A DNA stretch of 64,000 bases. Source: Caldimonas thermodepolymerans. Lineage in GTDB: Bacteria > Pseudomonadota > Gammaproteobacteria > Burkholderiales > Burkholderiaceae_C. The DNA lies in the NCBI RefSeq assembly GCF_015476235.1, contig NZ_CP064338.1, positions 558,001 through 622,000 on the forward strand, read 5' to 3'. A program made the position numbers and the translations under genes. Below the pieces are notes generated by a model, which ran no database searches, was not told the origin of the DNA, and saw only the letters and a program-made list of their open reading frames with translations. Positions 4,791 to 55,118 of the stretch are shown here, in pieces (position 1 is the first letter of the stretch; every line of letters begins with the position of its first letter).

Positions 4791-4826
4791 TTGACGCAAG
4801 TGCGCGCGGGACCAACTTCCTATAGT
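4791..4826 (+). promoter_or_regulatory. Island promoter motif 1 (liv operon)
   Basis: TTGACGCAAG at 4791-4800, then the -10-like TATAGT at 4821-4826, with exactly 24 nt between TTGACG and TATAGT. TAGC lies just upstream, as in other copies. It precedes livH by 40 nt. Confidence 0.6.
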
Positions 4827-4866
4827 GCGGCAAGACCGGGCCCACAGACCCGGCGAGGAGACAACG

Positions 4867-5742
4867 GTGGTGGCACTGCAACTGGTGCTGTCCGGCACCG
4901 CGCTTGGCTGCATCTATGCACTGATCGCGCTGGGCTTCGTCCTGATCTACAAGGCGACCGAGACGGTCAACTTCGCCCAGGGCGAGCTGATGATGCTCGG
5001 TGCGTTCTGCGCGCTGGTGCTGATGAAGTTCGTCGGCCTGCCGTTCCTGCTCGCGGCGCTGGTGGCCGTGGTCGGCATGGCGTGCTTCGGCGCGCTGATG
5101 GAGCGCTGCGTGATCCGTCCCATCCTGGGGCAGCCGCAGTTCACGGTGGTGATGATGACCATCGGCGCCGGCTACGTGATGCGCGGGCTGATCACGATGA
5201 TCCCGGAGATCGGCACCGACACGCACGTGCTGCCTGCGCCGTATCGCGGCGAGGTGATCCGGATCGGCCCGGCGGTGCTGGGCGCCGAGCAGGTGGTGGT
5301 GATCGCCGTGACCGCGCTGCTGTGCGCCGCGCTGTACCTGTTCTTCAAGCACGGCAAGGTCGGCATCGCGATGCAGGCCGCCTCGCAGAACCAGCTGGCG
5401 GCGTACTACGTGGGCATCCCGGTGCAGCGCCTCAACGCGCTGGTGTGGGGGCTGTCGGCGGTGGTGGCCACGGTGGCCGGCCTGCTGCTCGCACCCATCA
5501 TGTTCGTGCACGCGAACATGGGCTTCATCGGCCTCAAGGCCTTCCCGGCGGCGGTGGTGGGCGGCTTCGGCAGCCTGCCGGGCGCGGTGGTCGGCGGCCT
5601 GATCATCGGGCTGGCGGAATCGTTCTCCGGCTTCTACCTGCCCGAAGGCTTCAAGGACATCGCCGCGTACATCGTGGTCCTCGTCATGCTCGTGATCATG
5701 CCCAACGGCCTGTTCGGAGAGAACCTGCGCAAGAAGGTGTAG
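4867..5742 (+). CDS. livH: Branched-chain amino acid-type ABC transporter permease LivH
   Basis: A 291-residue polytopic inner-membrane protein, first of the two permeases of a Liv-type (HAAT) ABC importer. It shows the family pattern GLTLIYKATETVNFAQGELM-like segment near residue 30 and GGFGSLPGAVVGGLIIGLAE near the C-terminus. The start is GTG 4867, six bases after GAGGAG; longer in-frame starts would run through the promoter at 4791-4826. LivM follows after four bases. With livM, livG, livF and livK it forms a full importer. The acyl-CoA synthetase inside the same operon suggests that the cargo is a carboxylic acid and not an amino acid. Confidence 0.9.
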   Translation: MVALQLVLSGTALGCIYALIALGFVLIYKATETVNFAQGELMMLGAFCALVLMKFVGLPFLLAALVAVVGMACFGALMERCVIRPILGQPQFTVVMMTIGAGYVMRGLITMIPEIGTDTHVLPAPYRGEVIRIGPAVLGAEQVVVIAVTALLCAALYLFFKHGKVGIAMQAASQNQLAAYYVGIPVQRLNALVWGLSAVVATVAGLLLAPIMFVHANMGFIGLKAFPAAVVGGFGSLPGAVVGGLIIGLAESFSGFYLPEGFKDIAAYIVVLVMLVIMPNGLFGENLRKKV

Positions 5743-5746
5743 CAGC

Positions 5747-6823
5747 GTGCGTTTCCTCTTCAAGACCGACTACCGCCAGGACCTGCGACTGGTCCGGCAC
5801 TCCGGCCAGGCCTTCTGGTACGGCCTGCTGATGGTGGCCCTGCTGGCCGCGCCGCTGGTGGCCGACCGCTACTGGCTCTCGCAGCTGTCGTTCATCCTGA
5901 TCTATGCGATCGCGGGCCTGGGCCTGATGACGCTGGCCGGCTTCACCGGGCTGCTGTCCATCGGGCACGCGGCCTTCCTCGGCGTGGGCGCGTACACGCA
6001 GGCGGTGCTGACGCAGGCAGGCGTGCCCTTCGTGCTCGCGCTGGCCGCCGCCGCCGGGCTGTCCGCCGCCGCGGGCGTGGTGGTGGGCCTGCCGGCGCTG
6101 CGCGTCAAGGGCATCTACCTCGCGATCGCGACGCTGGCCTTCGGCTTCATCGCCGAGGAAGCGATGGTGCGCTGGGAGGACGTCACCGGCGGCAACAACG
6201 GCCTGCTGGTCAAGCCCGCACGCATCCTCGGCATGGACTTCAGTTCCGAGCAGAGCTTCTACTACCTCGCGCTGGTGATCTGCGTGCTGGTCACGCTGGG
6301 CGTGCTGCACCTGCTGCGCAGCAAGACCGGGCGCGCTTTCGTGGCGATCCGCGACTCGGAGGTCTCGGCGCAGAGCATGGGCATCCACCTCGCGTACTAC
6401 AAGACGCTGTCGTTCGCCTTCTCGGCGGCGGTGGTGGGCATCGCCGGGGCGCTGTACGCGCACAAGCTGCGCTTCATCTCGCCGGAGCAGTTCGGCATCC
6501 TGCAGTCGGTCGACCTGCTGCTGCTGGTGGTGGTGGGCGGCCTCGGCTCGGTGCACGGGGCCTTCCTCGGCGCGATCTTCATCATCGCGATGCCGCAGGT
6601 GATCGTGTTCCTCAAGGACCTGCTGCCCGGCAGCCTGGGCAGCGCCTCGGGCCTGCAGGCGGTGATCTACGGCCTGGTGCTGATGGCCTTCGTGATGTTC
6701 GAGCCCACGGGGCTGTACGGGCGCTGGCTGAAGATCCGCACCTGGCTGGACCTGTTCCCCTTCTACCGCCGCGGCATGTTCCGCCGGCAGAAATCCTTCC
6801 AACGGTCGGAGCGGCTCAAATGA
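5747..6823 (+). CDS. livM: Branched-chain amino acid-type ABC transporter permease LivM
   Basis: A 358-residue second permease with about nine hydrophobic segments. Family landmarks include GLMTLAGFTGLLSIGHAAFL (about residues 60-80), KTGRAFVAIRDSEVSAQSMG and VVGGLGSVHGAFLGA. The start is GTG 5747, four bases after the livH stop. Its TGA overlaps the ATG of livG (ATGA), so translation is coupled. The long N-terminus (FKTDYRQDLRLVRHSGQAFW) is charged and cytoplasmic. The charged C-terminal tail is slightly longer than usual (RRGMFRRQKSFQRSERLK). Confidence 0.9.
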   Translation: MRFLFKTDYRQDLRLVRHSGQAFWYGLLMVALLAAPLVADRYWLSQLSFILIYAIAGLGLMTLAGFTGLLSIGHAAFLGVGAYTQAVLTQAGVPFVLALAAAAGLSAAAGVVVGLPALRVKGIYLAIATLAFGFIAEEAMVRWEDVTGGNNGLLVKPARILGMDFSSEQSFYYLALVICVLVTLGVLHLLRSKTGRAFVAIRDSEVSAQSMGIHLAYYKTLSFAFSAAVVGIAGALYAHKLRFISPEQFGILQSVDLLLLVVVGGLGSVHGAFLGAIFIIAMPQVIVFLKDLLPGSLGSASGLQAVIYGLVLMAFVMFEPTGLYGRWLKIRTWLDLFPFYRRGMFRRQKSFQRSERLK

Positions 6824-7632
6824 GCGAGATCGCGATGCCGGAGATCCTGCTGTCCGTCAAGGACCTGTCCATGCACTTCGGCGGCGTGCGCGCCGTCAAC
6901 GGGGTGAGCTTCGACGTGCGCCGCGGCGAGGTGTTCACGCTGATCGGACCCAACGGCGCCGGCAAGACCACGGTGTTCAACCTGATCAGCCGCATCTACA
7001 CGCCGACCACCGGGCGCATCGTGTTCCGCGGGCGCGAGATCCACGCCGTGCCGCCGCACGCGATCGCGAAGCTGGGCATTGCGCGCACCTTCCAGAACAT
7101 CGAGCTGTTCGAACACGCCACCGTGCTGCAGAACCTGCTGATCGGCTACCACGCGCACTGCGAGTCGGGCTTCTGGAGCAACCTGCTGGCCACCCCGCGC
7201 TCGCGCCGCGCCGAGCTGGCCGCGCGCCGCAAGGCCGAGGAGGTGATCGACCTGCTCGACCTGCAGGTGTACCGCGACGCCATCGTCGCAGGCCTGCCCT
7301 ACGGCGTGCGCAAGGTGGTCGAGCTGGCCCGCGCGCTGTGCTCGCAGCCGGAGCTGCTGCTGCTCGACGAACCCTCGTCGGGCCTGAACACCGAAGAGAC
7401 CGAGGACATGGCCTGGTGGATCCGCGACATCCGCCGCCAGCTCGGCATCACGGTGCTGATGGTCGAGCACGACATGACCCTGGTGTCGCGCGTCTCGGAC
7501 CGGGTGCTGGCGATGAACCAGGGCGAGGTGCTGGCGCTGGGCAGCGCCGCCGAGGTGCAGCGCCACCCGGGCGTGGTCGAGGCCTACCTGGGCAGCTTCG
7601 ACGACGTCTCCAACCTGCGGAGGGCGGCATGA
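6820..7632 (+). CDS. livG: ABC transporter ATP-binding protein LivG
   Basis: A 270-residue ATPase of the Liv importer. Walker A GPNGAGKT is at residues 43-50. The signature region is the LivG variant LPYGVRKVVELARAL, followed by Walker B LLLLDEPSSGLN and the switch histidine in MVEHDMTLVSRVSD. It overlaps livM by four bases and livF by four bases, so the ATPases are coupled to the permeases. It should form a heterodimer with LivF on the cytoplasmic face. Confidence 0.92.
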   Translation: MSEIAMPEILLSVKDLSMHFGGVRAVNGVSFDVRRGEVFTLIGPNGAGKTTVFNLISRIYTPTTGRIVFRGREIHAVPPHAIAKLGIARTFQNIELFEHATVLQNLLIGYHAHCESGFWSNLLATPRSRRAELAARRKAEEVIDLLDLQVYRDAIVAGLPYGVRKVVELARALCSQPELLLLDEPSSGLNTEETEDMAWWIRDIRRQLGITVLMVEHDMTLVSRVSDRVLAMNQGEVLALGSAAEVQRHPGVVEAYLGSFDDVSNLRRAA

Positions 7633-8414: not shown

Positions 8415-8432
8415 CGCGATGCAGGAGTGCGC

Positions 8433-10268: not shown

Positions 10269-10301
10269 CCCCCCTTCACCACGACCACAGGAGACAACCG
10301 G

Positions 10302-11468: not shown

Positions 11469-11470
11469 CC

Positions 11471-12262: not shown

Positions 12263-12277
12263 CCGGTACGGCGCCAA

Positions 12278-12311: not shown

Positions 12312-12330
12312 GGCGTTGCGGCATCCGCCG

Positions 12331-13248
12331 TCAGGCGGGCCGCGCACCACCGGAGCGGGTGCCCAGCCGCGTGCCGGCCAATACCAGGCCCAGGCCGACC
12401 AGGTGCCACAGCGTGAGTGATTCGCCGAGGAACAGCACCGACACCAGCACCGAGAACACCGGCATCCAGTACAGCCAGACCGAGGCGCGGCTCATCCCGA
12501 TGCGCCCGATCGCGACGTTCCACATCAGGCCGCCGATGCCGGTGGACACCACGCCCGAGAGCACCGCGACCCACCACCACAGCGGGTCGGGCGACAGGCG
12601 CGGCGCAGCGCCGGTGGCCCAGGCCTGCGCGCTGCCGTGCAGCAGCAGGCAGGCCGCGCCGACCGCGTGGACGAACAGGCTGATGCGCAGCGCGTCGATG
12701 CCGCGCGCCAGGCGCTGCACCAGCACCGCGCCGAAGGTGAACGACAGCACCGCAAGCAGCACCAGCAGGTCGCCGACGCCGGCCTCGGCCAGCTCGGCCG
12801 CCGGGCGGTGCAGGATCACCAGCGCGACGCCGGCCAGGCCCAGCATGGCGCCCGCGAGGCGCCGGCCACCGAGGCGCTCGCCGAGCAGCAGCAGCGCGAC
12901 CAGGCCCGACAGCAGCGGGTTGAGCGCGGTGATCAGCGAGGCGTTGGTGGCGCTGCTGCGCGCGATGCCGACGGCCAGCAGCCACTGGTTGATGTAGACC
13001 ATCAGGATGCCGCAGGCGGTGAGCGCGCACAGCTGGCGGAGGTTGAGTGCCCAGCCGGACGGGCGGGCATGCAGCACCAGCAGCGCCTGCGGCAGGCAGG
13101 CCACGCCCATGCGCAGGCCGGACAGCCACAGCGGGTCGAAGTGCGTCGACAGCAGCTTGATGACGGGCAGGCTGGTGCCCCACAGCACGGTGGTGGCAAG
13201 CAGCAGCCAACGGACGTCGGTGCGCGGTGACGTGGCGGTCGTGTCGAT
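12331..13248 (-). CDS. EamA/DMT-family transporter
   Basis: About 305 residues with ten hydrophobic segments and two EamA repeats, an inner-membrane drug/metabolite exporter type. Markers are VLWGTSLPVIKLL in the first helix, NASLITALNPLLSGLVALLL at the end of repeat 1 and VLVSVLFLGESLTLWHLVG in repeat 2. The only standard start, GTG 13188, would cut the first helix. The frame continues upstream and shows AGGAG eight bases before an ATC at 13248-13246, giving an N-terminus IDTTATSPRTDVRWLLLATT. I propose an AUC start. The shared island motif with -10 CATCAT lies just upstream, so the exporter is probably co-regulated with the catabolic genes. Confidence 0.8.
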   Translation of the reverse strand: MDTTATSPRTDVRWLLLATTVLWGTSLPVIKLLSTHFDPLWLSGLRMGVACLPQALLVLHARPSGWALNLRQLCALTACGILMVYINQWLLAVGIARSSATNASLITALNPLLSGLVALLLLGERLGGRRLAGAMLGLAGVALVILHRPAAELAEAGVGDLLVLLAVLSFTFGAVLVQRLARGIDALRISLFVHAVGAACLLLHGSAQAWATGAAPRLSPDPLWWWVAVLSGVVSTGIGGLMWNVAIGRIGMSRASVWLYWMPVFSVLVSVLFLGESLTLWHLVGLGLVLAGTRLGTRSGGARPA

Positions 13249-13270
13249 GGCCGTCTCTCCTGACGCCGCG

Positions 13271-13306: not shown

Positions 13307-13331
13307 CTGGCCGCGGCGCCGCAGCAGCCAC

Positions 13332-13367
13332 TTGACGCAAGCCTCGCCGGGGCTCGGCTGGTAGCTT
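13332..13367 (+). promoter_or_regulatory. Island promoter motif 2 (beta-oxidation operon)
   Basis: AGCCAC precedes TTGACGCAAG (13332-13341). The -10-like TAGCTT is at 13362-13367 after the constant 24 nt. The FadB-like gene starts 33 nt later. Confidence 0.6.
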
Positions 13368-20212: not shown

Positions 20213-20337
20213 TGCTGTTGGTCATCGGGGGCAACCCGGGGCCTGTCACCGTGGCCGTGACGTGCGTCCGCACGGGACCGTCAGGACTTACCCGAGCCGC
20301 ATCCGTGCGTGCCTGCACGGGCCCGGGCCATAGCACG

Positions 20338-20373
20338 TTTACACAAGACACCTCCGGGCAAGGCCCGTACGCT
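20338..20373 (+). promoter_or_regulatory. Island promoter motif 3 (synthetase-TRAP operon)
   Basis: TAGCACG precedes TTTACACAAGA (20338-20348). TACGCT is at 20368-20373, again 24 nt from the first hexamer. The acyl-CoA synthetase at 20445 follows. Confidence 0.58.
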
Positions 20374-23917: not shown

Positions 23918-25075
23918 ATGCAGTTTCCCAAGACGATGTCCCGCTGGATCGCCGCCGCGGTGGTGTGCGCGACGGCCGCAATCGCCGCCCCGGCGGTGGC
24001 CAAGCAGTTCAAGTACGCGATCGGCTTCCCGCCCGGCTCGTACAACGTCGAGATGGCCGAGGACTACGCCAAGCGCGTGAAGAAGTACACCGACGGCCGC
24101 CACTCGGTGCGCGTGTTCCCGATGACGTTGCTCAACATGGCCGAGACCTCGGCGGGCCTGCGCGACGGCATCGCCGACATCGGCTTCCTGCTGACGCCCT
24201 ACTTCCCGGCCGAATACCCGCATTCGAACCTGCCCAACGAAGCGTCGATGATGCTGCGCCTGCTGGGCAACGAGGTGCAGGGCAAGGAGGCGCTGGCCTT
24301 CGTCGGGGCGCTGACCGAGTTCACCTTCTTCAACTGCCCCGAGTGCCACCAGGAGTTCGCCAGGCAGAACCAGGTCTACACCGGGCACATCGGCGGCTCG
24401 TCCTACGGCCTGGTGTGCAACAAGCCGGTGCGCTCGATCGAGGAGCTCAAGGGCAAGCGGCTGCGCGCCGGGGCGGCCAACTGGTCGCGCTGGGCCACTG
24501 CGGTGGGCGCCAGCCCGATCACGATGAGCGCCAACGAGATGCGCGAAGCGCTGTCGCAGGGCGTGGTCGACTGCATCATCCTGTCGGCCCCGGAGATCCA
24601 CAACTTCGGCCTGATGGACACGATCTCCGACATCACGATGGCGGTGCCCGGCGGCGTGTTCAGCACCGCGGCCTTCAACATGAACGTCAAGGTCTGGCGC
24701 TCGCTGAGCGTCGAGGACCGCCGCGCCTTCCTGCGCGCCGCGGCCGAAGGCGGCGCCTACACGCCGTGGATCTACCAGCAGAAGGAGCAGGCCATCCTCG
24801 AAGAGGCGAAGAAGAAGGGCGTGCGCCTGCACGAGGCCGACGCTGCGCTCGTGAAGAAGACGCAGGAGTTCATCGAGCAGGACATGAACACCATCGCGAA
24901 GTACTTCGCCGACAAGCACAGCGTCAAGCGCGGCGAGGAAATGATCAGGACGTTCCGGCCCATCCTCGAGAAGTGGGTCAAGCTGGTCCAGAACGTGAAG
25001 ACCCAGGACGACCTGGGCGCCCTGTACTGGAACGAGATCTATTCCAAGGTGGACGTGACCAGGCACGGCATGTGA
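23918..25075 (+). CDS. dctP: TRAP transporter substrate-binding protein DctP, copy 1
   Basis: A 385-residue periplasmic receptor with a signal peptide (about residues 1-28, ending APAVA before KQFKYAIG). The DctP fold is shown by the conserved Arg region KGKRLRAGAANWSRWATAVG, where the Arg normally binds the ligand carboxylate. An AAGGAGG ribosome site precedes ATG 23918. The next gene but one element encodes a close homologue of the same length. A pair of cysteines (NCPECHQEF) present in both copies is unusual for DctP. Confidence 0.9.
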   Translation: MQFPKTMSRWIAAAVVCATAAIAAPAVAKQFKYAIGFPPGSYNVEMAEDYAKRVKKYTDGRHSVRVFPMTLLNMAETSAGLRDGIADIGFLLTPYFPAEYPHSNLPNEASMMLRLLGNEVQGKEALAFVGALTEFTFFNCPECHQEFARQNQVYTGHIGGSSYGLVCNKPVRSIEELKGKRLRAGAANWSRWATAVGASPITMSANEMREALSQGVVDCIILSAPEIHNFGLMDTISDITMAVPGGVFSTAAFNMNVKVWRSLSVEDRRAFLRAAAEGGAYTPWIYQQKEQAILEEAKKKGVRLHEADAALVKKTQEFIEQDMNTIAKYFADKHSVKRGEEMIRTFRPILEKWVKLVQNVKTQDDLGALYWNEIYSKVDVTRHGM

Positions 25076-25172: not shown

Positions 25173-26330
25173 ATGAAGTCGATGCAACGCTTTTCCCGGG
25201 TGGTGGCGCTGGCTGCCGTGTTGGGCCTGGCTGCCGCCAGCGGCGCGGCCGTGGCGAAGCAGTTCAAGTACGCGATCGGGCAGCCGCCCGGCTCGTACAA
25301 CGTGGACATGGGGCAGCGCTACGCCGAGCGCGTGAAGAAGTACACCGAGGGTCGCCACACGGTGCGCGTGTTCCCGATGACGCTGCTCAACATGGCCGAG
25401 ACCTCGGCCGGCGTGCGCGACGGCATCGCCGACATCGGCTTCCTGCTGACACCTTACTTCCCGGCCGAGTACCCGCACACCAACCTGATCAGCGAGGCGT
25501 CGATGATGCTGCGCCTGATGGGCGAGGAGGCGCGCGGCAAGGAGGCGTCGGCGTTCGTCGGCGCGATCACCGAGTTCATCTTCTTCAACTGCCCCGAGTG
25601 CCACCAGGAGTTCGCCAGGCAGAACCAGGTCTACACCGGCCACATCGGGGGCTCCACCTACGGCCTGATCTGCACCAAGCCGGTCAAGTCGCTGGACGAC
25701 CTCAAGGGCAAGCGGGTGCGCTCGGGGGCGGCCAACTGGTCGCGCTGGGCCACGACGGTCGGCGCCACGCCGATCACGATGAGCGCCAACGAGATGCGCG
25801 AGGCGCTGTCGCAGGGCGTGGTCGACTGCGCGCTGCTGTCCACGCCGGAGATCCACAACTTCGGCCTGGAAGACGTCGTCAAGGACATCAACATGGACGT
25901 GCCGGGCGGCCTCTACACCACCGCCGGCTTCAACATGAACGTCAACGCCTGGCGCAGCCTGAGCGCACAGGACCGCCGCGCGTTCCTGCGTGCCTCGGCC
26001 GAGGGCGGAGCCTACACGCCCTGGATCTACCAGGAGAAGGAAGCCGAGGCGATCGAGGCGGCCAAGAAGCGCGGCGTGCGCATGCACACCGCCGACCCCG
26101 AGCTGCTCAAGAAGACCCAGGCCTTCATCGAGCAGGACATGGAGACCATCGCCAAGTACTTCGCCGAGAAGCACGGCGTCAAGCGCGGCCGCGAGATGAT
26201 CGCCACGTTCCGCCCGATCCTCGAGAAGTGGGTCAAGCTGGTGCAGCCGGTCAAGAGCGTCGACGAGCTGGGGGACCTCTACTGGAAGGAGATCTATTCC
26301 AAGGTCGACGTCGAGAAGCTCGGCCAGTGA
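25173..26330 (+). CDS. dctP: TRAP transporter substrate-binding protein DctP, copy 2
   Basis: Also 385 residues, with its own signal peptide (about 1-26). It aligns with copy 1 along its whole length without visible gaps, sharing KQFKYAIG.PPGSYNV, FPMTLLNMAETSAG and the NCPECHQEFARQNQVYTGHI segment; I estimate about three quarters identity. Differences cluster in short stretches (for example SAPEIHNFGLMDTISDI versus STPEIHNFGLEDVVKDI). It arose by tandem duplication. Two receptors for one permease suggest a wider or tunable substrate range, but both could bind the same ligand. Confidence 0.9.
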   Translation: MKSMQRFSRVVALAAVLGLAAASGAAVAKQFKYAIGQPPGSYNVDMGQRYAERVKKYTEGRHTVRVFPMTLLNMAETSAGVRDGIADIGFLLTPYFPAEYPHTNLISEASMMLRLMGEEARGKEASAFVGAITEFIFFNCPECHQEFARQNQVYTGHIGGSTYGLICTKPVKSLDDLKGKRVRSGAANWSRWATTVGATPITMSANEMREALSQGVVDCALLSTPEIHNFGLEDVVKDINMDVPGGLYTTAGFNMNVNAWRSLSAQDRRAFLRASAEGGAYTPWIYQEKEAEAIEAAKKRGVRMHTADPELLKKTQAFIEQDMETIAKYFAEKHGVKRGREMIATFRPILEKWVKLVQPVKSVDELGDLYWKEIYSKVDVEKLGQ

Positions 26331-28464: not shown

Positions 28465-28465
28465 C

Positions 28466-37391: not shown

Positions 37392-37469
37392 GCCGGGCTC
37401 CTGCGCCCCGGGGCGGGGCATGCGGGCATTCTAGGCAGGGCCGCAGGCGCGGCGTGCGCCGCCAGCCAA

Positions 37470-37505
37470 TTGGCACAAGACAGCCCCGGGCCGCGGGGGT
37501 AGCTT
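37470..37505 (+). promoter_or_regulatory. Island promoter motif 4 (hydratase/TIGR03084 operon)
   Basis: CAGCCAA precedes TTGGCACAAGA (37470-37480). TAGCTT is at 37500-37505, spaced by 24 nt. The hydratase gene starts 25 nt downstream. Confidence 0.58.
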
Positions 37506-40062: not shown

Positions 40063-40074
40063 GGCACCAGCCAC

Positions 40075-40110
40075 TTTACGCAAGACGCGGCCGGTAGCGC
40101 TCGGTAGCCT
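40075..40110 (+). promoter_or_regulatory. Island promoter motif 5 (atu-like operon)
   Basis: AGCCAC precedes TTTACGCAAGA (40075-40085). TAGCCT is at 40105-40110 after the constant 24 nt. The carboxylase gene starts at 40176. Confidence 0.6.
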
Positions 40111-40175: not shown

Positions 40176-41798
40176 ATGGCAATCATCGAAACCAACATTT
40201 CGACGAGCAGCGAGAGCTTCCAGGCCAACCGTGCCGGCATGCTCTCGCTGATCGAGCGCGTGCGTGCGCTGGAAGAGCGGACCCGGCGTGCTTCGGCGGC
40301 GTCCAAGCCCCGCTTCGAGAAGCGCGGCCAGCTGCTGCCGCGCGAGCGTCTGGCCCTGCTGCTCGACCCGGGGGCCCCCTTCCTGGAACTGTCGACGCTG
40401 GCCGGCTACCGCCTGGACGTCGACGACCCCGACAAGAGCGTGCCCGGCGGCGGCCTGATCGCCGGCATCGGCTACGTCTCCGGCGTGCGCTGCATGGTGT
40501 GCGCCTCCGACTCGGGCATCGACGCCGGGGCGCTGCAGCCGCGCGGCCTGGACAAGCAGCTGCGCGTGCAGGAGCTGGCGCTGGAGAACAAGCTGCCCTA
40601 CGTGCAGCTGGTGGAAAGCGCCGGCGCCAACCTGATGGCCTACCGCGTCGAGGACTTCGTGCGCGGCGGCAACCTGTTCCGCAACCTGGCGCGCCTGTCG
40701 GCCGCGGGCCTGCCGGTGATCACGGTGACGCACGGCTCGTCCACCGCGGGCGGCGCCTACCAGACCGGCCTGTCGGACTACATCATCCTGGTGCGCGGCC
40801 GCTCGCGCGCCTTCCTCGCCGGCCCGCCGCTGCTCAAGGCCGCCACCGGCGAGATCGCCACCGAGGAGGAACTCGGCGGTGCCGAGATGCACACCAGCAT
40901 CTCGGGCCTGGGCGACTACCTGGCCGAGGACGACCGCGACGCGCTGCGCATCGCGCGCGACATCATGGCCAAGCTCGAGTGGAACCGCGGCACCAGCCTC
41001 GAGGCCCCGCGCCCGGTCAAGCCGCCGCGCTACGACCGCGAGGAGCTGCTCGGCATCATGCCGATGGACCACAAGCACCCGGTCGACATGAAGGAGGTGA
41101 TCGCGCGCATCGTCGACGACTCCGACTTCCTCGAGTTCGGCGCGCGCTACGGCTCCGCGACGGTGTGCGGCAACGCGATGCTCGACGGCTACCCGGTGGG
41201 CATCATCACCAACAACGGCCCGATCGACCCGGCCGGCGCGGCCAAGGCGACGCACTTCATCCAGGCCTGCTGCCAGGCCAACGTGCCGATCCTGTACCTG
41301 AACAACACGACCGGCTTCATGGTCGGCCGCCACTACGAGGAGCTGGGCATCATCAAGCACGGCTCCAAGATGATCCAGGCGGTCACCAACGCCACCGTGC
41401 CGCAGATCACCCTCTACTGCGGCGCCTCGTTCGGCGCCGGCAACTACGGCATGTGCGGCCGCGGCTTCCACCCGCGCTTCTGCTTCTCGTGGCCGAACGC
41501 CAAGACGGCGGTGATGGGCGGCGAGCAGGCCGCGCAGACCATGGCCATCGTCACCGAGGCGGCGATGAAGCGCAAGGGCGCCGAGGTCGACCGCGAGCAG
41601 CTCGCCAAGCTGCAGCGCCGCATCGTCGACAACTTCGACCGCCAGATGGACGTGTTCACGACCAGCGCGCTGCTGCTCGACGACGGCGTGATCGACCCGC
41701 GCGACACCCGCGCGGTGCTGTCCTACGTGCTGTCGATCTGCCGCGAGGCCGAGGCCCGCAAGGTGCGCCCGATCCAGTTCGGCGTCGCCCGCCCCTGA
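40176..41798 (+). CDS. Biotin-dependent acyl-CoA carboxylase, carboxyltransferase (beta) subunit, AtuC/LiuB-like
   Basis: A 540-residue carboxyltransferase with both crotonase-type halves. The acyl-CoA oxyanion segment is VTHGSSTAGGAYQTGLSDY, the second half has GIITNNGPIDPAGAAKATHF and CGASFGAGNYGMCGRGFHPR. It moves carbon dioxide from biotin to the gamma carbon of a beta-methyl enoyl-CoA. Geranyl-CoA (AtuC) and methylcrotonyl-CoA (LiuB) carboxylases are the two nearest groups; the HGSSTAGGAY form and the neighbouring AtuA gene favour an Atu-type enzyme. The alpha subunit gene lies at 43003. Confidence 0.87.
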   Translation: MAIIETNISTSSESFQANRAGMLSLIERVRALEERTRRASAASKPRFEKRGQLLPRERLALLLDPGAPFLELSTLAGYRLDVDDPDKSVPGGGLIAGIGYVSGVRCMVCASDSGIDAGALQPRGLDKQLRVQELALENKLPYVQLVESAGANLMAYRVEDFVRGGNLFRNLARLSAAGLPVITVTHGSSTAGGAYQTGLSDYIILVRGRSRAFLAGPPLLKAATGEIATEEELGGAEMHTSISGLGDYLAEDDRDALRIARDIMAKLEWNRGTSLEAPRPVKPPRYDREELLGIMPMDHKHPVDMKEVIARIVDDSDFLEFGARYGSATVCGNAMLDGYPVGIITNNGPIDPAGAAKATHFIQACCQANVPILYLNNTTGFMVGRHYEELGIIKHGSKMIQAVTNATVPQITLYCGASFGAGNYGMCGRGFHPRFCFSWPNAKTAVMGGEQAAQTMAIVTEAAMKRKGAEVDREQLAKLQRRIVDNFDRQMDVFTTSALLLDDGVIDPRDTRAVLSYVLSICREAEARKVRPIQFGVARP

Positions 41799-41816
41799 AC
41801 CAACGGAGTAGACCAG

Positions 41817-42971
41817 ATGCAGCTGACCCCTGAACACGAGGAAATGCGGCGCACCATCAAGCGCTTCATCGCCGAGGAGATCAACCCCTACGTCGACGAA
41901 TGGGAAGAGGCCGAGATCTTCCCGGCGCACGAGCTGTTCCGCAAGATGGGCAAGCTGGGCCTGCTGGGCCTGAACAAGCCGGAGCAGTTCGGCGGGCTGG
42001 GCCTGGACCACTCCTACGCGGCGGTGCTCGCCGAGACGCTGGGCGAGGTCAACTGCTGCGGCGTGCCGATGGCCATCGGCGTGCAGACCGACATGGCCAC
42101 CCCGGCGCTGGCCGAGCGCGGCTCCGACGAGCTGCGCCGGGAATTCCTCGCGCCGGCCATCTCGGGCGAGATGGTGGCCTGCCTGGGCGTCTCGGAGGTC
42201 GGCAGCGGCTCGGACGTTGCCTCGATCAAGACCACCGCGCGCAAGGACGGTGGCGACTACGTCATCAACGGCGGCAAGATGTGGACCACCAACGGCACGC
42301 AGGCGGACTTCTGCGTGGTGCTGGCCAACACCTCGGACGGCCCGGTGCACAAGAACAAGTCGCTGATCGTCGTGCCGATGAAGACCAAGGGCGTGTCGGT
42401 CGCGAAGAAGATCCGCAAGATCGGCATGAACGCCTCGGACACCGCGCAGCTGTACTTCGACGAGGTGCGGGTGCCGCAGCGCTACCGCATCGGCGAGGAA
42501 GGCATGGGCTTCATCTACCAGATGGAGCAGTTCCAGATCGAGCGCCTGTGGGGCGCGCTCAACGCCGGTGGCACGCTGCTGCGCTGCATCGACGAGACCA
42601 TCGAGTACGTGCGCCAGCGCAAGGCCTTCGGCAAGGCGCTGGTGGACAACCAGTGGATCCACTACAAGCTGGCCGAGCTCAAGACCGAGGTCGAGTCGCT
42701 GCGCGCGCTGACCTGGCGCGGCGTGGAGATGGTGGTCAACGGCGAGAACGCGACCGAAGTCGCCTCGATGGCCAAACTCAAGGCCGGGCGCCTGATGCGC
42801 ATGGTGCCGGACGGCTGCCTGCAGTTCTGGGGCGGCATGGGCTTCGTCTGGGAAAGCCCGGTGTCGCGCATCTTCCGCGACGGCCGCCTGACGTCGATCG
42901 GCGGCGGCGCCGACGAGGTGATGCTGCAGATCATCTCGAAGTACATGGGCATCTTCCCGAAGGCGCAGTAA
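41817..42971 (+). CDS. Acyl-CoA dehydrogenase, AtuD-like (citronellyl/branched-chain)
   Basis: A 384-residue acyl-CoA dehydrogenase of normal length. Markers are LTPEHEEMRRTIKRFIAEEI at the start, the flavin loop ACLGVSEVGSGSDVASIKT, GGKMWTTNGTQADF and IERLWGALNAGG; the C-terminal end has GGGADEVMLQIISKYMG. Placed between the beta and alpha carboxylase subunits, it should make the cis/trans-2-enoyl-CoA that the carboxylase uses, as AtuD does for citronellyl-CoA. Substrate specificity is inferred from context. Confidence 0.87.
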   Translation: MQLTPEHEEMRRTIKRFIAEEINPYVDEWEEAEIFPAHELFRKMGKLGLLGLNKPEQFGGLGLDHSYAAVLAETLGEVNCCGVPMAIGVQTDMATPALAERGSDELRREFLAPAISGEMVACLGVSEVGSGSDVASIKTTARKDGGDYVINGGKMWTTNGTQADFCVVLANTSDGPVHKNKSLIVVPMKTKGVSVAKKIRKIGMNASDTAQLYFDEVRVPQRYRIGEEGMGFIYQMEQFQIERLWGALNAGGTLLRCIDETIEYVRQRKAFGKALVDNQWIHYKLAELKTEVESLRALTWRGVEMVVNGENATEVASMAKLKAGRLMRMVPDGCLQFWGGMGFVWESPVSRIFRDGRLTSIGGGADEVMLQIISKYMGIFPKAQ

Positions 42972-43002
42972 GCACGGCACGCCACCCATCGGCAGTCAAT
43001 CC

Positions 43003-44994
<1,992 letters not shown>

Positions 44995-45045
44995 GCCGCC
45001 GGGTGCCGTCCCGGCCTGACGTACGAACATCAGACAGGAGTTCCC

Positions 45046-45819
45046 ATGACCGCCGCCGTCCTCCACGAGAAGAGGTCGTCCACGTTCTGGATCACGATCA
45101 ACCGGCCCGACAAGCGCAACGCGATCAACCAGGAGGTGATCGACGGCATCCGCGCGGGCTACCGCGCCGCGCATGCCGACCCCGAGGTCCGTGCGATCGT
45201 GCTGACCGGTGCCGGTGACAAGGCCTTCTGCGCCGGCGGCGACCTGCAGCCGGGCAAGGGCTTCGCGTTCGACTACGCCAAGCCCAGCGTCGACTACGCC
45301 GACCTGCTGCGCGAGGCGCAGAACGCCACGCTGCCCACCATCGCGCGCGTCAACGGCACCTGCATGGCCGGCGGCATGGGCCTGCTGTGCATGGTGGACA
45401 TGGCGGTGGCGGCCGACCACGTGCTGTTCGGCCTGCCCGAGGTCAAGGTGGGCGTGTTCCCGATGCAGGTGCTGAGCCTGCTGCAGCACATGGTGCCGCA
45501 GCGCGTGCTGCGCGAGTGGTGCATCACCGGCGAGCCGTTCGACGCGCACGCGGCGCTGCAGCACGGGCTGCTCAACGACGTCGTGCCGGCCGCCGAGCTG
45601 GACGCGAAGACCGACTGGCTGGTGCAGCGCATCGTCGACAAGTCGCCCACCGCGATCCGCCGCGGCAAGTACGCGATGCGCGCGATGGCCGCGATGTCCT
45701 TCGACCAGGGCATCGCCTACACCGAAAGCCAGATCGCGCTGCTGGCGCTGACCGAGGACGCGAAGGAAGGCCTCGCGGCCTTCAACGAGAAGCGCAAGCC
45801 GGTGTGGACCGGGCGTTGA
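45046..45819 (+). CDS. Enoyl-CoA hydratase family protein, AtuE/LiuC-like position
   Basis: A 257-residue crotonase. The oxyanion segments are KAFCAGGDLQPG and GTCMAGGMGLLCMVD. Of the two hydratase glutamates the second is present (E132 in GLPEVKVGVFPM), while the first position is glycine (G112). This may shift it from standard hydration. In the terpenoid and leucine routes the gene beside the carboxylase hydrates isohexenylglutaconyl- or methylglutaconyl-CoA. It starts after AGGAG and ends 19 bases before the AtuA gene. Confidence 0.85.
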   Translation: MTAAVLHEKRSSTFWITINRPDKRNAINQEVIDGIRAGYRAAHADPEVRAIVLTGAGDKAFCAGGDLQPGKGFAFDYAKPSVDYADLLREAQNATLPTIARVNGTCMAGGMGLLCMVDMAVAADHVLFGLPEVKVGVFPMQVLSLLQHMVPQRVLREWCITGEPFDAHAALQHGLLNDVVPAAELDAKTDWLVQRIVDKSPTAIRRGKYAMRAMAAMSFDQGIAYTESQIALLALTEDAKEGLAAFNEKRKPVWTGR

Positions 45820-45838
45820 GGCAGAGGAGGAACCACCC

Positions 45839-47629
45839 ATGTCCAGCAACAAGGTCGTGCGCATCGGCGGGGGATCCGGCTTCTGGGGCGACAGCTCGGT
45901 CGCCGCGGCGCAGCTGGTGCACGGCGCGCCCATCGACTACCTGGTGTTCGACTACCTGGCCGAGCTGACCATGGCCATCCTGGCCTCGGCGCGCAACAAG
46001 AAGCCCGAGCTCGGCTACGCGACCGACTTCGTCGACGTCGCGATGAGGAGCGTGCTGCGCGAGGTGGCGCAGAAGGGCATCAAGGTCATCAGCAACGCCG
46101 GCGGCATCAACCCGCGCGGCTGCGCCGAGGCGCTGGGCCGGCTGGCCGAGGAAATGGGCGTGTCGCTGAAGATCGCGGTGGTCGAAGGCGACGACGTCAG
46201 CGCACTGATCCCGGCGCTGCGCGAGCGCGGTCAGACCGACATGTTCACCGGCGGGCCGCTGCCCGAGCGCATCCTGAGCGCCAACGCCTACCTGGGCGCG
46301 CTGCCGGTCGCCGCGGCGCTGGCCGAGGGGGCGGACGTCGTGATCACCGGGCGCTGCGTCGACAGCGCGGTGACGCTGGGCGCGCTGATCCACGAGTTCG
46401 GCTGGAAGCCGCAGGACTACGACCGGCTCGCCGCCGGCAGCCTGGCCGGGCACATCATCGAGTGCGGCTGCCAGGCCACCGGCGGGCTGCACACCGACTG
46501 GGAGGCCATCCCCGACTGGGCCCGCATCGGCTACCCGGTGCTCGAGTGCGAGGCCGACGGCAGCTTCGTCGTCACCAAGCCGCAGGGCACCGGCGGGCGG
46601 GTGCTGGCCGCCGCCGTGGCCGAGCAGATGCTCTACGAGATCGGCGACCCGGGCGCCTACGTGCTGCCGGACGTGGTGTGCGACTTCCGCGAGGTGCGCA
46701 TCGAGCAGGCGGGCGAGGACCGCGTGCGCGTCAGCGGCGCGCGCGGCCTGCCGCCGACCGGCACCTACAAGGTCTCGGCCACCTACATGGACGGCTACCG
46801 CAGCGCCGGCTCGCTCGTCATCATCGGCATCGACGCGGCCGCCAAGGCGCGCCGCACCGGCGAGGCGATCCTGGAGCGCACCCGCGGCATCTTCAGGCAG
46901 CTGGGCCTGCCCGACTACAGCGCCGCCTACGTGGAGGTGATCGGCGCCGAGACCACCTACGGCCCGCATGCGCGCACCGCGCATTCGCGCGAGGTGATGA
47001 TGCGCGTGGCGGTCAACCACAGCTCCAGGCAGGCGCTGGAGATCTTCGCCCGCGAGATCGCCCCGGCCGGGACCTCCTGGTCGCCGGGCACCACCGGACC
47101 CAACCTGGCGCGGCCGACGCCGTCGCCGCTGATCAAGCAGTTCGCCTTCACGCTGCCCAAGAGCGAGGTCTCGATCCGCGTGCACGTGGACGGGCGCGAG
47201 GTGCCGGTGGACGTGCCGGTGGCGGGCGCGCCGCTGCAAGCCACCCCGCCGGATGCGGTCGGGGCGCCCGCCGCGGCCGCCGGCACACGCGAGGTGCCGC
47301 TGCTGCGCCTGGCCTGGGCGCGCAGCGGCGACAAGGGCAACATCTCCAACATCGGCGTGATCGCGCGCAAGCCGCAGTACTTCGAGGTGATCCAGCGCGA
47401 GCTGACGCCCGAGCGGGTGAAGCGCTACTTCGCGCACCTGGTGCGCGGCGACGTGGTGCGCTACACGCTGCCGGGCATCCAGGCGGTGAACTTCATGCTC
47501 TACGACGCGCTGGACGGCGGCGGCACCGCCTCGATGCGCATGGACCCGCTGGGCAAGGGCATGGGGCAGATGCTGCTGGACATGCCGGTGCCGGTGCCCG
47601 AGGCGCTGGCGCGCGAGCTGGAGGGCTGA
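45839..47629 (+). CDS. atuA: AtuA-family protein (DUF1446, acyclic terpene utilisation)
   Basis: A 596-residue cytoplasmic protein of the AtuA family. The start VRIGGGSGFWGDSSVAAAQL, the YLVFDYLAELTMAILA stretch, ISNAGGINPRGCAEAL and DVVITGRCVDSAVTLG are the classical DUF1446 motifs; the C-terminal 110 residues form the attached AtuA-like ferredoxin-fold-type domain (LAWARSGDKGNISNIGVIAR). The protein is needed for citronellol/geraniol growth in Pseudomonas, yet its reaction is not settled. AGGAGG is close to the ATG. It overlaps nothing, but only three bases separate its stop from the next SDR. Confidence 0.85.
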   Translation: MSSNKVVRIGGGSGFWGDSSVAAAQLVHGAPIDYLVFDYLAELTMAILASARNKKPELGYATDFVDVAMRSVLREVAQKGIKVISNAGGINPRGCAEALGRLAEEMGVSLKIAVVEGDDVSALIPALRERGQTDMFTGGPLPERILSANAYLGALPVAAALAEGADVVITGRCVDSAVTLGALIHEFGWKPQDYDRLAAGSLAGHIIECGCQATGGLHTDWEAIPDWARIGYPVLECEADGSFVVTKPQGTGGRVLAAAVAEQMLYEIGDPGAYVLPDVVCDFREVRIEQAGEDRVRVSGARGLPPTGTYKVSATYMDGYRSAGSLVIIGIDAAAKARRTGEAILERTRGIFRQLGLPDYSAAYVEVIGAETTYGPHARTAHSREVMMRVAVNHSSRQALEIFAREIAPAGTSWSPGTTGPNLARPTPSPLIKQFAFTLPKSEVSIRVHVDGREVPVDVPVAGAPLQATPPDAVGAPAAAAGTREVPLLRLAWARSGDKGNISNIGVIARKPQYFEVIQRELTPERVKRYFAHLVRGDVVRYTLPGIQAVNFMLYDALDGGGTASMRMDPLGKGMGQMLLDMPVPVPEALARELEG

Positions 47630-47632
47630 GCG

Positions 47633-48454: not shown

Positions 48455-48463
48455 GGAGCTGCC

Positions 48464-51065
<2,602 letters not shown>

Positions 51066-51078
51066 GCGCCGCGCCCGC

Positions 51079-51096
51079 CTGCGGAGAAGTCCGCAG
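51079..51096 (+). terminator. Weak hairpin after the FadH-like gene
   Basis: CTGCGGA and TCCGCAG form a 7-bp stem with a GAAG loop, 14 bases after the stop. There is no T-run, so termination is uncertain. Confidence 0.35.
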
Positions 51097-51150
51097 CGTG
51101 CCCGTGCGGCCGGCGCGGTATCGTGCGCGTCGACACACCAAGGAGCATCC

Positions 51151-51963: not shown

Positions 51964-51984
51964 GGCCGGGCGCCGGCGCGGCCT

Positions 51985-52593
51985 TCAGCGCCGCGTCAGC
52001 GGCACCACCAGCTCGCGCACCGGGCCGCTAGCCAGCGCCGGGTAGGGCGGCTTGGGCCAGGCCCAGCGGTCGCCCGGGAACAGCGCGCGCATCGCGTGGA
52101 TGTCGCAGTGGTAGGGCGGCCCCTTGATGAAGCCCTGCGCGGATTCCTCCGCGCGCGCCTGCACGAACAGCGCGAGCAGCCGCCCGCCCGGTTGGATCCA
52201 GGCGTGCAGCTGCTGCGCATAGCGCTGCCAGTGGTCCGGGTGCAGCGCGCACAGGCAGGTCTGCTCGTAGACCACGTCCACCGGCGCGTCCGGCTGCCAC
52301 TCCAGCACGTCGGCCTGCACCAGCGGGGCCTGCAGCCCCTGCCGCTCCAGCAGCGCGCGGCACGCCTCGATGGCCGCCGGCGCGTAGTCGATGCCCGTGA
52401 CCGGCACGCCGCGCCCGGCCAGCAGTGCCACTTCCCAGCCGCGCCCGCAGCCCGGCACCAGCACGCGGTGCTGCGGGCCGACCAGGCCCTCGTCCAGCCA
52501 CTGCTGCAGCTGCGGGTTGGGGCCGCCCCGGTCCCAGGGCGTGGTGCCGGTCGCGAAGCGCTCCTGCCAGAAGCCCACGTCGGGTCCTGCCAT
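51985..52593 (-). CDS. Thiopurine S-methyltransferase-like SAM methyltransferase
   Basis: A 202-residue SAM methyltransferase of the TPMT family. It opens WQERFATGTTPWDRGGPNPQ, has the SAM motif VLVPGCGRGWEVALLA (about residue 45-60), GIDYAPAAIEA and YEQTCLCALHP. In bacteria such enzymes methylate thiols or metalloids (tellurite, selenite); natural substrates are uncertain. It is read opposite to its neighbours and starts 195 bases from the divergent kinase gene. A minus-strand island motif lies upstream, so it may belong to the same regulon. Confidence 0.83.
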   Translation of the reverse strand: MAGPDVGFWQERFATGTTPWDRGGPNPQLQQWLDEGLVGPQHRVLVPGCGRGWEVALLAGRGVPVTGIDYAPAAIEACRALLERQGLQAPLVQADVLEWQPDAPVDVVYEQTCLCALHPDHWQRYAQQLHAWIQPGGRLLALFVQARAEESAQGFIKGPPYHCDIHAMRALFPGDRWAWPKPPYPALASGPVRELVVPLTRR

Positions 52594-52631
52594 CGGTCGT
52601 CTCCTGTGGTTCGGTTCGTGCGTCGACCTGC

Positions 52632-52667
52632 ATCATGCCCGGCTTCGCGCCGGCTGTCTTGCGCCAG
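52632..52667 (-). promoter_or_regulatory. Island promoter motif (methyltransferase gene)
   Basis: On the minus strand CTGGCGCAAGAC starts at 52667, with CATGAT at 52637-52632 and 24 nt between them. A second copy, TTGACGCAA (minus, 52697-52689), lies exactly 30 bp further upstream. Confidence 0.5.
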
Positions 52668-52688
52668 CCTGCCGGGGCCGCCCGCGGT

Positions 52689-52697
52689 TTGCGTCAA
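52689..52697 (-). promoter_or_regulatory. Second motif copy in the divergent control region
   Basis: Plus strand TTGCGTCAA, that is TTGACGCAA on the minus strand, inside the near-palindrome GGTTTGCGTCAACC. It has no -10 hexamer at the 24-nt distance on its own strand. It may serve activation of the kinase gene at 52789, whose best -10 candidate is TACAGT at 52733-52738. Confidence 0.35.
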
Positions 52698-52788
52698 CCT
52701 GCTGTATCGGCGGCGGTGCCCGGCCTCGTGCCTACAGTCGTCCACGAGACAACGTGGAGGACGAACGCCCCATGCAAAGGAGTAGGGC

Positions 52789-53847
52789 ATGAGCGCCAGC
52801 ACGGCGCAGACCGCCGGCCTGCCGCCGGGTTTCGACGTCGGGCGGCTGGAGCAGTACCTGCACGCCCACGTGGAGGGCTACGCGGGTCCGCTGCAGGTGC
52901 AGCGCTTCCCGGACGGCCAGTCCAACCCCACCTACCTGCTCGCCACCCCCACGCGGCGCTACGTGCTGCGCAAGAAGCCGCACGGCCAGCTGCTGCCCTC
53001 GGCGCATGCGGTCGAGCGCGAGTACCGCGTGATCCGCGCGCTGCACGGCCGCGGCGTGCCGGTGGCGCGGCCGTACTGCCTGTGCGAGGACGACGCGGTG
53101 GTCGGCACGCCGTTCTACGTGATGGAGTACGTGCACGGGCGCGTGCTGTGGGACCCGACCCTGCCCGGCATGCAGCCGGCCGAGCGCACCGCGCTCTACG
53201 ACGAGATCAACCGCGTGGTCGCGGCGCTGCACGCGATCGACCCGGCGTCGGTGGGGCTGGCCGACTACGGGCGCCCCGGCAACTACTTCGAGCGGCAGAT
53301 CGCGCGCTGGACCAGGCAGTACCGCGCCTCGGAGACCGAGCCGATCCCGGCGATGGACGCGCTGATCGAGTGGCTGCCGCAACACATCCCGGCCGTCGAG
53401 GAAAACGCGATCGTGCACGGTGACCTGCGGCTGGACAACCTGATCTTCCATCCGACCGAGCCGAGGATCCTCGCGGTGCTCGACTGGGAGCTGTCCACGC
53501 TGGGCCACCCGCTGGCGGACTTCGCCTACCACATGCTGACCTGGCGGCTGTCGGCCGACGAGTTCCGCGGCATGCGCGGCGCGGACCTGGCGGCGCTGGG
53601 CATCCCCGACGAGCGCACCTACCTCGACCTGTACTGCCGGCGCACCGGACGCGCTCCGGTGCCGGCGCACGAATGGGATTTCTACCTCGCCTACAGCATG
53701 TTCCGCCTCGCGGCCATCCTGCAAGGCATCCTCAAGCGCGCCTACGACGGCAACGCCTCCAGCGCGCACGCCCTGGAGACCGGGCGCCGCGCCCGCCCCA
53801 TCGCCGAAGCCGGCTGGCGCCAGGCCCAGGCCGCAGTGACCCGCTGA
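52789..53847 (+). CDS. APH-family phosphotransferase (ACAD10/11 kinase-like)
   Basis: A 352-residue kinase-fold protein. The catalytic loop [14 protein letters not shown] and the metal motif [17 protein letters not shown] are typical of the acyl-CoA-associated APH group, as is the early [12 protein letters not shown] segment. The acyl-CoA dehydrogenase of the ACAD11 type follows after 22 bases; in mammals the same two domains are fused in ACAD10/11. No DUF6285 partner gene is present here, unlike at 30144. It probably phosphorylates the hydroxyl of a 4-hydroxyacyl-CoA. Start ATG 52789 follows AAAGGAG. Confidence 0.83.
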
Positions 53848-53869
53848 CACCCCACCGACAGGAACTGCC

Positions 53870-55078
53870 ATGGATCTGTTCACGCTCTCGCCCAAAGTCC
53901 AGGACCTGAAGGCACGCCTGCTGGCCTTCATGGACCAGCATGTCTACCCGAACGAGGAACGCTACTTCCGCGAGTCCGCCGAGCACGGCCCGTGGGGCGT
54001 GCAGCCGGTCGTCGAGGAGCTGAAGGCGCTGGCGCGCGAGCAGGGGCTGTGGAACCTGTTCCTGCCCGACTCCGAACACGGCGCGGGCCTGAGCAACCTC
54101 GAGTACGCGCCGCTGTGCGAGATCATGGGCCGCTCGCTGCTGGCGCCCGAGGTGTTCAACTGCTCGGCGCCCGACACCGGCAACATGGAGGTGCTGGCGC
54201 GCTACGGCACCGAGGAGCAGAAGCGCCAGTGGCTGGTGCCGCTGCTCGACGGCCGCATCCGCAGCGCCTTCGCGATGACCGAGCCGGCGGTGGCTTCCAG
54301 CGACGCGACCAACATCCAGGCCTCGATCCGACGCGAGGGCGACGAGTACGTGATCGACGGCCACAAGTGGTTCACCACCGGCGCCACCGACCCGCGCTGC
54401 AAGATCATCATCTTCATGGGCAAGACCAACCCGGATCACCCGGACAAGCACAAGCAGCAGTCCATGATCCTCGTGCCCAAGGACACCCCGGGCGTCAAGG
54501 TGATCCGGCCGCTGCCGGTGTTCGGCTTCGCCGGCGTGCCCGACCGCGCCGCCGAGGTGGTGTTCGAGAACGTGCGCGTGCCGGCGTCGAACATCCTGCT
54601 CGGCGAGGGGCGCGGCTTCGAGATCGCGCAGGGCCGCCTCGGCCCGGGCCGCATCCACCACTGCATGCGCCTGATCGGCCTGGCCGAGCGCGCGCTCGAG
54701 AAGATGTGCCGCCGCACCAAGGAGCGCGTCGCGTTCGGCAAGCCGGTGGCCGAGCAGACCGTGACGCTGGAGCGCATCGCCGAGGCGCGCATCATGATCG
54801 ACCAGTGCCGCCTGCTGACGATGCACGCGGCGCACATGATGGACACGGTGGGCAACAAGGCGGCCAAGGCGCAGATCGCGATGATCAAGGTCGCCGCGCC
54901 GAACATGGCGGCCAAGGTGGTCGACTGGGCGATCCAGGCGCACGGCGGCGGCGGCGTCACGAACGACTTCGGGCTGGCGGTGGCCTACGCGACCGCGCGC
55001 CTGCTGCGCCTGGCCGACGGGCCGGACGAGGTGCACCGCAACCAGATCGGCAAGCTGGAGCTGCGCAAGTACGCGTAG
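53870..55078 (+). CDS. Acyl-CoA dehydrogenase, ACAD11-like (paralogue of 34188)
   Basis: A 402-residue acyl-CoA dehydrogenase. It shares long blocks with the protein at 34188 ([57 protein letters not shown]) and likewise has D383 in DGPDEVH where ordinary dehydrogenases have the Glu of EGT. With the kinase gene it repeats the phosphorylation/elimination pair. It differs in the segment after residue 220 ([17 protein letters not shown]), so the acyl part of the substrate may differ. The stop lies just before promoter motif 6. Confidence 0.87.
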
Positions 55079-55082
55079 CCGG

Positions 55083-55118
55083 TTGGCGCAAGACTGCGCC
55101 GCCGCAGCCTCCTACGCT
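55083..55118 (+). promoter_or_regulatory. Island promoter motif 6 (dehydrogenase/synthetase operon)
   Basis: TAGCCGG precedes TTGGCGCAAGA (55083-55093). TACGCT is at 55113-55118, again 24 nt from TTGGCG. The start at 55146 lies 27 nt downstream. Confidence 0.6.

Follow-up and report, generated by a model that had tools for sequence, protein, structure and literature searches.

A repeated promoter element and its probable AraC-family reader in a probable catabolic island of Caldimonas thermodepolymerans

Eight transcription units in a 64-kb stretch of the Caldimonas thermodepolymerans genome appear to share one promoter element, which raises the question of what this element is and which protein reads it. 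The stretch, here called the window, comprises bases 558001-622000 of a one-contig genome of 3,858,501 bases (1.7% of the genome) and has a GC content of 70%. An earlier note on this DNA had described the element as TTKRCRCAAG and YANNNT at a fixed distance, had taken it for either a class II activator box or an alternative sigma site, and had named the AraC protein encoded at 3137-3988 as the natural candidate for its control. On the basis of sequence comparisons, we consider it highly probable that the element is an AraC-read class II box, which would serve as the operator-plus-promoter of a local regulon of eight transcription units.

The repeated promoter element is present in the window. 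All eight hexamer pairs lie where the earlier note had placed them, and in all eight the 10-mer and YANNNT are separated by 20 nt, equivalent to the claimed 24 nt between hexamers. The pattern TTKRCRCAAG-N20-YANNNT is matched exactly by seven of the eight sites; the site at 52667 on the minus strand starts with C. Pairs of YTKRCRCAAG and YANNNT occur in the window eight times with gap 20 and, among the other gaps from 10 to 31, only with gap 12 (twice). The genome-wide pattern search that had been proposed returned seven exact matches, all of them inside the window, and none for the pattern written backwards. With an even spread, the chance of seven out of seven matches falling into these 64 kb is about 3e-13. 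In this genome, the strict form of the element is restricted to the island. When two mismatches are allowed, the signal is swamped by chance (190 matches versus 155 in the control). The claim that most copies are preceded by AGC plus three or four bases holds for the triplet (AGC in six of the eight sites, GGC in both minus-strand sites), but the distance is always three bases. AC directly follows the 10-mer in five of the eight sites, and the -10 is poorer at both minus-strand sites (CATCAT and CATGAT).

The full shape of the element could be derived from relatives. From 451 relatives, 79 distinct loci in public genomes were selected, with a related AraC gene as the sole criterion; some of these loci are from close relatives. 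The core AGCNNNTTKRCRCAAG, with at most one mismatch, was found at 106 places in 57 of the 79 loci, compared with seven places for the reversed core and nine for one scramble, which was only rough and did not keep the exact letters. Several positions that were open in the query are conserved, namely C or T before AGC (0.90), C and A after AGC (0.70 and 0.75), C or G just before the 10-mer (0.80) and AC after it (0.63 and 0.76). After 20 nt, the T, A and T of T-A-N-N-N-T reach 0.62, 0.71 and 0.64. The core query did not include TANNNT. This hexamer follows 59 of the 103 distinct core hits at gap 20 and 19 at gap 21, and any other gap from 8 to 39 accounts for one or none; 25 of the hits lack it at gaps 19-21. 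AGCN3TTKRCRCAAG-N20-YANNNT, again with at most one mismatch, has 65 sites in 39 of the loci, against none for the reversed pattern and at most one for each of 30 scrambled cores. The version with gap 21 has 24 sites, and those with gaps 17, 18, 19, 22 and 23 have 4, 0, 1, 0 and 7, respectively.

Judged by this conservation, the element is larger than the earlier note had described, with a predicted 19-bp box and the consensus YAGCCAS-TTKRCRCAAG-AC-N18(19)-TANNNT. When the -10 is set at -12 to -7, the box should extend from about -49 to -31. The -35 position would then read AAGACN, a weak -35 separated from TANNNT by 17 bp or, in relatives, also by 18 bp. Since AAGACN and not the TTGACR hexamer would be the -35, the puzzle of the over-long 24-nt spacer is resolved. 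The box, with an information content of about 24.5 bits, has the appearance of a bipartite, asymmetric site with about seven bases between its blocks (YAGC-N7-CRCAAG, from about -49 to -33), overlapping a sigma70-type -35.

A 19-column matrix was built from 77 sites in 47 of the 79 loci, a subset of the 106 core hits with TANNNT at gap 20 or 21 after removal of duplicates, and includes no window sites. Its ranks 1-9 in the window are the eight sites and a tandem box, with scores from 31.6 to 12.7 bits; rank 10 scores 8.0. Twenty column-permuted matrices gave window scores up to 17.6, so that the two lowest-scoring boxes (16.1 and 12.7) are not distinct by score alone, but they are still at the promoter position. 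A further copy at 3010-3019, which had been suggested to mediate self-control of the AraC gene, was rejected as a box. It lies on the minus strand, consists of the 10-mer only, has neither AGC nor a -10 at gap 20, and scores -10.1, as opposed to 12.7 to 31.6 for the nine boxes. A sequence-only model of 59 promoters from relatives, for which 150 of 2350 first-look candidates in the whole genome were scored, places its best seven hits in the window, with E between 1.5e-5 and 0.16; the next hit (rank 8, E 0.17) is outside, and the 52674 site comes at rank 11. In the 79 loci, the matrix finds 151 boxes above 17, compared with 0 to 5 for eight column-permuted matrices and 4 for a reversed one. Such a box is also held by 15 of the 32 loci that had given the matrix no site, and a matrix trained on 23 loci finds a box in 36 of the remaining 56. 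The comparison of related genomes carrying the AraC gene, which the earlier note had suggested, thus points to conservation of the box before similar genes in many of them.

Box and AraC gene also occur together across 200 genomes of the family, of which 10 count as AraC-positive (a match with E up to 1e-40). The strict motif AGCN3TTKRCRCAAG-N20-TANNNT has 14 sites, in seven of the 10 AraC-positive and none of the 190 AraC-negative genomes (Fisher p 5e-11); with one mismatch, it is found in 10 of 10 and 22 of 190 (Fisher p 3e-9). The short pattern TTKRCRCAAG-N20-YANNNT, proposed originally as the marker, fails in this role elsewhere, as it has at least one match in 108 of the 200 genomes, that of C. 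thermodepolymerans included; hence only the extended box is specific. The flanks (1.5 kb) of atuC-like genes were compared for 30 of 61 carboxylase matches. An atuC-like gene of at least 73% identity is present in 12 genomes, nine AraC-positive and three AraC-negative. All nine AraC-positive genomes have a box scoring above 16 in the flank; its distance from the start of the gene is about 50 to 140 bases in eight of them, while in G011 it lies about 1.3 kb upstream. In the three AraC-negative genomes (G098, G046 and G162) the box is absent, with a best flank score of 8.7, and neither a box above 14 nor a match to araC occurs in the 20 kb around their atuC-like genes. A further 18 carboxylase loci of lower similarity, including one in the AraC-positive genome G132, have no box above 12.0.

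Linkage does not account for this co-occurrence. In three genomes (G071, G122 and G011), araC and atuC are on separate contigs, with at least 40 kb between either gene and the nearest contig end, and boxes still head atuC-, atuA- or acyl-CoA-dehydrogenase-like genes. The 20-kb stretches read in these genomes (in G011 beside, not over, atuC) contain no araC match. The same-genus genome G129 has no AraC, no strict motif and, at the cut-offs used, no atuC-like gene, so that the island does not extend to the whole genus.

The boxes are likely read by the AraC-family protein encoded at 3137-3988, and the earlier choice of it as the natural candidate is well supported by the co-occurrence across genomes, unlinked cases included. 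The protein matches HTH_18 with E 2.6e-14 and HTH_AraC with E 7e-10; the two matches pass the Pfam cut-off, as expected for an AraC/XylS C-terminal domain with two helix-turn-helix motifs. Its gene gave the only helix-turn-helix hit in a Pfam scan of 60 open reading frames in the window. In an AlphaFold2 model of moderate confidence (mean pLDDT 76.3), the N-terminal part is beta-rich and the C-terminal part, which holds the predicted DNA-binding domain, is helical. Most members of the AraC/XylS family have an N-terminal effector-binding or dimerisation domain; the N-terminal part of this protein has no Pfam hit, and NCBIfam gave no match above cut-off for the protein. Foldseek matches to whole AraC-type regulators such as ToxT and Rns (TM about 0.4-0.5) and to cupins are too weak for the ligand to be deduced from the structure. 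The recognition-helix stretches, with the consensus SFSRFLHLFK and PDSTHFSHSIR, are largely kept between the window protein and 13 relatives of 39-50% identity, which fits a conserved site.

In the proposed mechanism, the AraC protein would bind the box through its two helix-turn-helix motifs, contacting YAGC and CRCAAG, seven bases apart, and would recruit sigma70 RNA polymerase in a class II manner. The trigger would probably be an isoprenoid or branched-chain acid, or its acyl-CoA, at the N-terminal domain, and the eight units would be switched on so that such acids are taken up, activated with CoA and broken down. Both the binding itself and its activating rather than repressing effect are inferred, as is the inducer, which is deduced from the target genes only.

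These targets point to breakdown of acyclic-terpene or branched acyl-CoA, and the island probably serves the breakdown of terpene-like acids. According to Pfam, the boxed units comprise branched-chain-type ABC transporter genes with an acyl-CoA synthetase; a fadJ-like gene and thiolase; an EamA transporter; an acyl-CoA synthetase with TRAP transporter genes; an enoyl-CoA hydratase unit; atuC-D-F-E-A-like genes with SDR, DUF2889 and an old-yellow-enzyme-type reductase; a TPMT-like methyltransferase; and an acyl-CoA dehydrogenase. Operon extents in the window are predictions from gene order. The set expected of an atu pathway lies in a row at 40176-47629, with AtuA (E 8e-151), Carboxyl_trans, a biotin carboxylase with carrier domain, an acyl-CoA dehydrogenase and ECH; the letters C, D, F, E and B given to these genes are presumably those of the Pseudomonas cluster. 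In the relatives, where only genes with a window homolog were counted, 80 of the 106 core hits have such a gene starting within 400 nt, and four fall within one on the same strand. The first genes are araC (19), atuC-like genes (16), atuA (9), fadJ (4), dehydrogenases (8), acyl-CoA synthetases (13; these form two groups, with an identity of only about 30% for some) and others. In Thauera linaloolentis 47Lol, araC is flanked by a box on each side, and an SDR gene and atuA come next. An araC gene together with a boxed group of atuC-like genes is also found in Pseudoduganella (L036), in Alloalcanivorax (L055, Gammaproteobacteria) and in Sphingosinicella (L080, Alphaproteobacteria), in the last case with no TANNNT at gap 20 or 21.

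How do other explanations fare? Chance, or the composition shared by a window of 70% GC, could account for the presence of the short pattern in 108 family genomes, but we reject it as having a negligible probability, in view of the genome counts and the controls: there were no control hits, seven of seven hits are inside 1.7% of the genome, and a matrix from relatives only recovers the sites, while reversed and scrambled controls fail. An alternative sigma factor that takes TTKRCRCAAG as the -35 and YANNNT as the -10, with a long spacer, would be in line with the rigid -10 spacing in the window (gap 20 in all eight sites). It is very improbable nevertheless, although no matching sigma factor was looked for, because the conserved part spans 19 bp with about 24.5 bits, has its start near -49 and follows the AraC-type plan YAGC-N7-CRCAAG, because relatives use gap 21 too, and because its occurrence tracks the AraC gene. 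The sigma-site option of the earlier note is therefore not needed, and its class II option gains support from the co-occurrence and from the layout YAGC-N7-CRCAAG overlapping the -35. The box might also be read by another regulator that travels with the island, so that AraC merely co-occurs. Linkage could have brought in such a regulator, as the 79 loci were picked by AraC. We regard this as quite unlikely, since no further helix-turn-helix protein is encoded among the 60 open reading frames, since the commonest clusters with window homologs after AraC itself (75 of 79 loci) are enzymes and transporters, and since boxes are kept where araC and atu-type genes occupy different contigs. Identification covered the clusters that have window homologs; of the remainder, several resemble shadow frames. 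It is unlikely, though slightly less so, that AraC binds the box and mainly represses, or needs a co-regulator. A box over the -35 could block polymerase, and AtuR, the regulator of the Pseudomonas atu genes, is a repressor (PMC9973270). On the other side, AAGACN at the -35 and a box-to--10 distance kept at 20 or 21 are what activation predicts. Positive control by a single box appears to be the best reading of the sequences.

Several observations weigh against the AraC-read box. No box precedes the araC gene of the window (best matrix score 2.9). The contrast of 9/9 versus 0/3 atuC flanks is small, and the AraC-negative genomes may differ in more than AraC; one of them, G162, lacks an atuA-like match in the stretch that was read. 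As the scoring for AraC covered no more than 12 candidates per genome, a few AraC-negative labels could be wrong. The matrix and the counts in the 79 loci depend on the choice by AraC, while the tests in the window and in the 200 genomes are independent of it. Of the AraC loci, 18 of 79 have no box above 17 in the DNA fetched; for one (L096), boxes are present about 14 and 23 kb away on contig C8 of genome G175, taken as the same contig, and the other 17 stand as exceptions. Dimeric AraC regulators use two consecutive sites (PMC4514859), but consecutive direct-repeat sites are not the rule here. Within 90 bp upstream and 60 bp downstream of 154 distinct boxes above 17, there are three same-strand companions above 8, although weaker half-sites below this threshold are possible. 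The other companions are mostly on the opposite strand, an arrangement typical of divergent promoters, and in the window a clear second box is limited to one promoter (52704/52674, both below 17). Finally, in T. linaloolentis, transposon insertions were obtained in a TetR gene 38% identical to AtuR, with a role reported as unclear (PMC4847356), so that another regulator or joint control may act there.

Table 1. Predicted boxes with their -10 hexamers, and the regulator gene, in window coordinates
Feature	Position	-10	Strand	Context
Box	4784-4802	TATAGT 4821-4826	+	before livH, branched-chain-type ABC transporter genes; likely GTG 4867
Box	13325-13343	TAGCTT 13362-13367	+	before fadJ-like gene (13400) and thiolase
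Box	13313-13295	CATCAT 13276-13271	-	divergent; before EamA transporter gene 12331-13188
Box	20331-20349	TACGCT 20368-20373	+	before acyl-CoA synthetase gene (20445), TRAP transporter genes
Box	37463-37481	TAGCTT 37500-37505	+	before enoyl-CoA hydratase gene (37530)
Box	40068-40086	TAGCCT 40105-40110	+	before atuC-like carboxyltransferase gene (40176), genes to about 51963
Box	55076-55094	TACGCT 55113-55118	+	before acyl-CoA dehydrogenase gene, likely ATG 55146
Box	52674-52656	CATGAT 52637-52632	-	before TPMT-like methyltransferase gene 51985-52593
Tandem box CAGCAGGTTGACGCAAACC	52704-52686		-	30 bp upstream of 52674 box; absent from the earlier note
AraC/XylS-family regulator gene	3137-3988		+	283 amino acids; in-frame GTG also at 3119

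The box before the atuC-like gene has the top matrix score in the window (31.6). The distance from the inferred transcript start to the predicted start codon is about 18 to 76 nt, if the later GTG is used for livH. The tandem box scores 16.1 with the matrix and coincides with a weak hit of the promoter model in the window (52704-52673, E 0.16). It forms the only clear tandem pair in the window, and may also serve the divergent gene at 52789. The EamA gene has its first ATG/GTG/TTG start at GTG 13188, which looks internal; the N-terminus would be longer with an in-frame ATC, a possible rare start codon, that comes soon after an upstream AGGAGA. The adjacent genes 23918-25075 and 25173-26330 on the plus strand encode DctP-type TRAP binding proteins with similar N-termini, likely a tandem duplication. 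At the end of the island, 58128-61412 on the minus strand encodes a fused isobutyryl-CoA mutase IcmF (NCBIfam, above cut-off), with no box among the top matrix hits of the window.

Two observations concern the AraC loci of relatives. Contig C11 of genome G044 carries three related araC genes within about 31 kb (L020, L028 and L031) with box-like sites nearby, which suggests paralogs sharing the box. Variovorax loci (including L062, L070, L079 and L083) have AraC relatives and no box within the fetched flanks; their targets may be further off, or their box may differ.

Taken together, a promoter pattern noticed by eye has withstood genome-wide and cross-genome tests, and yields a testable regulator, binding site and regulon for the breakdown of acyclic terpenes and branched acids outside Pseudomonas. 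An AraC-type activator of this kind appears, from the loci compared, to occur in betaproteobacteria and in some gamma- and alphaproteobacteria. We lean towards the view that this unnamed activator is the main control of atu-type genes outside Pseudomonas, including in T. linaloolentis, with positive control via a single box in place of AtuR. As a portable element of 19 bp with a fixed distance in the promoter, the box would lend itself to use as a sensor part for terpenoid acids. In the open-licence literature searched, we found no description of this AraC regulator or box, which does not imply absence from print, and the only control described there for atu-type genes is the TetR repressor AtuR/RdmA.

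AtuR is described as the TetR repressor of the Pseudomonas atu cluster, with RdmA as a near relative, and its site as two 13-bp inverted repeats, AGCAAGCGCTTGG and CCAAGCGCTTGCT (PMC9973270). AtuR and the AraC protein of the window are both tied to atu-type genes, but they differ in protein family, DNA site and predicted logic, which is opposite. The window does not look like an AtuR regulon, as there is no TetR hit among the 60 open reading frames and the box differs; the AGCAAGCGCTTGG repeat was not searched for. A position over the -35 is that of sites for class II or AraC/MarA-type activators (PMC8470410, PMC8151288). GliR (PA3027) of P. aeruginosa, an AraC-type activator with one preferred site over the -35, resembles the window protein in both respects, but differs in its motifs (YYGGCGHTDTYSGMC and GGAYAWCGCCG) and in acting on genes of glycerolipid metabolism (PMC8151288).

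The closest parallel in site layout is E. coli AraC. The sequence relation between the two proteins is detectable in the DNA-binding domain only (2k9s, E 4e-10). The E. coli site araI overlaps the -35. The E. coli half-site has two contact blocks with seven bases between them, the first with TAGC (PMC4514859); the window box is likewise asymmetric and bipartite, with the same seven-base distance and with YAGC in the place of TAGC. In contrast to the E. coli system, the second block of the window box is CRCAAG, there is usually one box per promoter, and the targets are isoprenoid or branched acyl-CoA genes.

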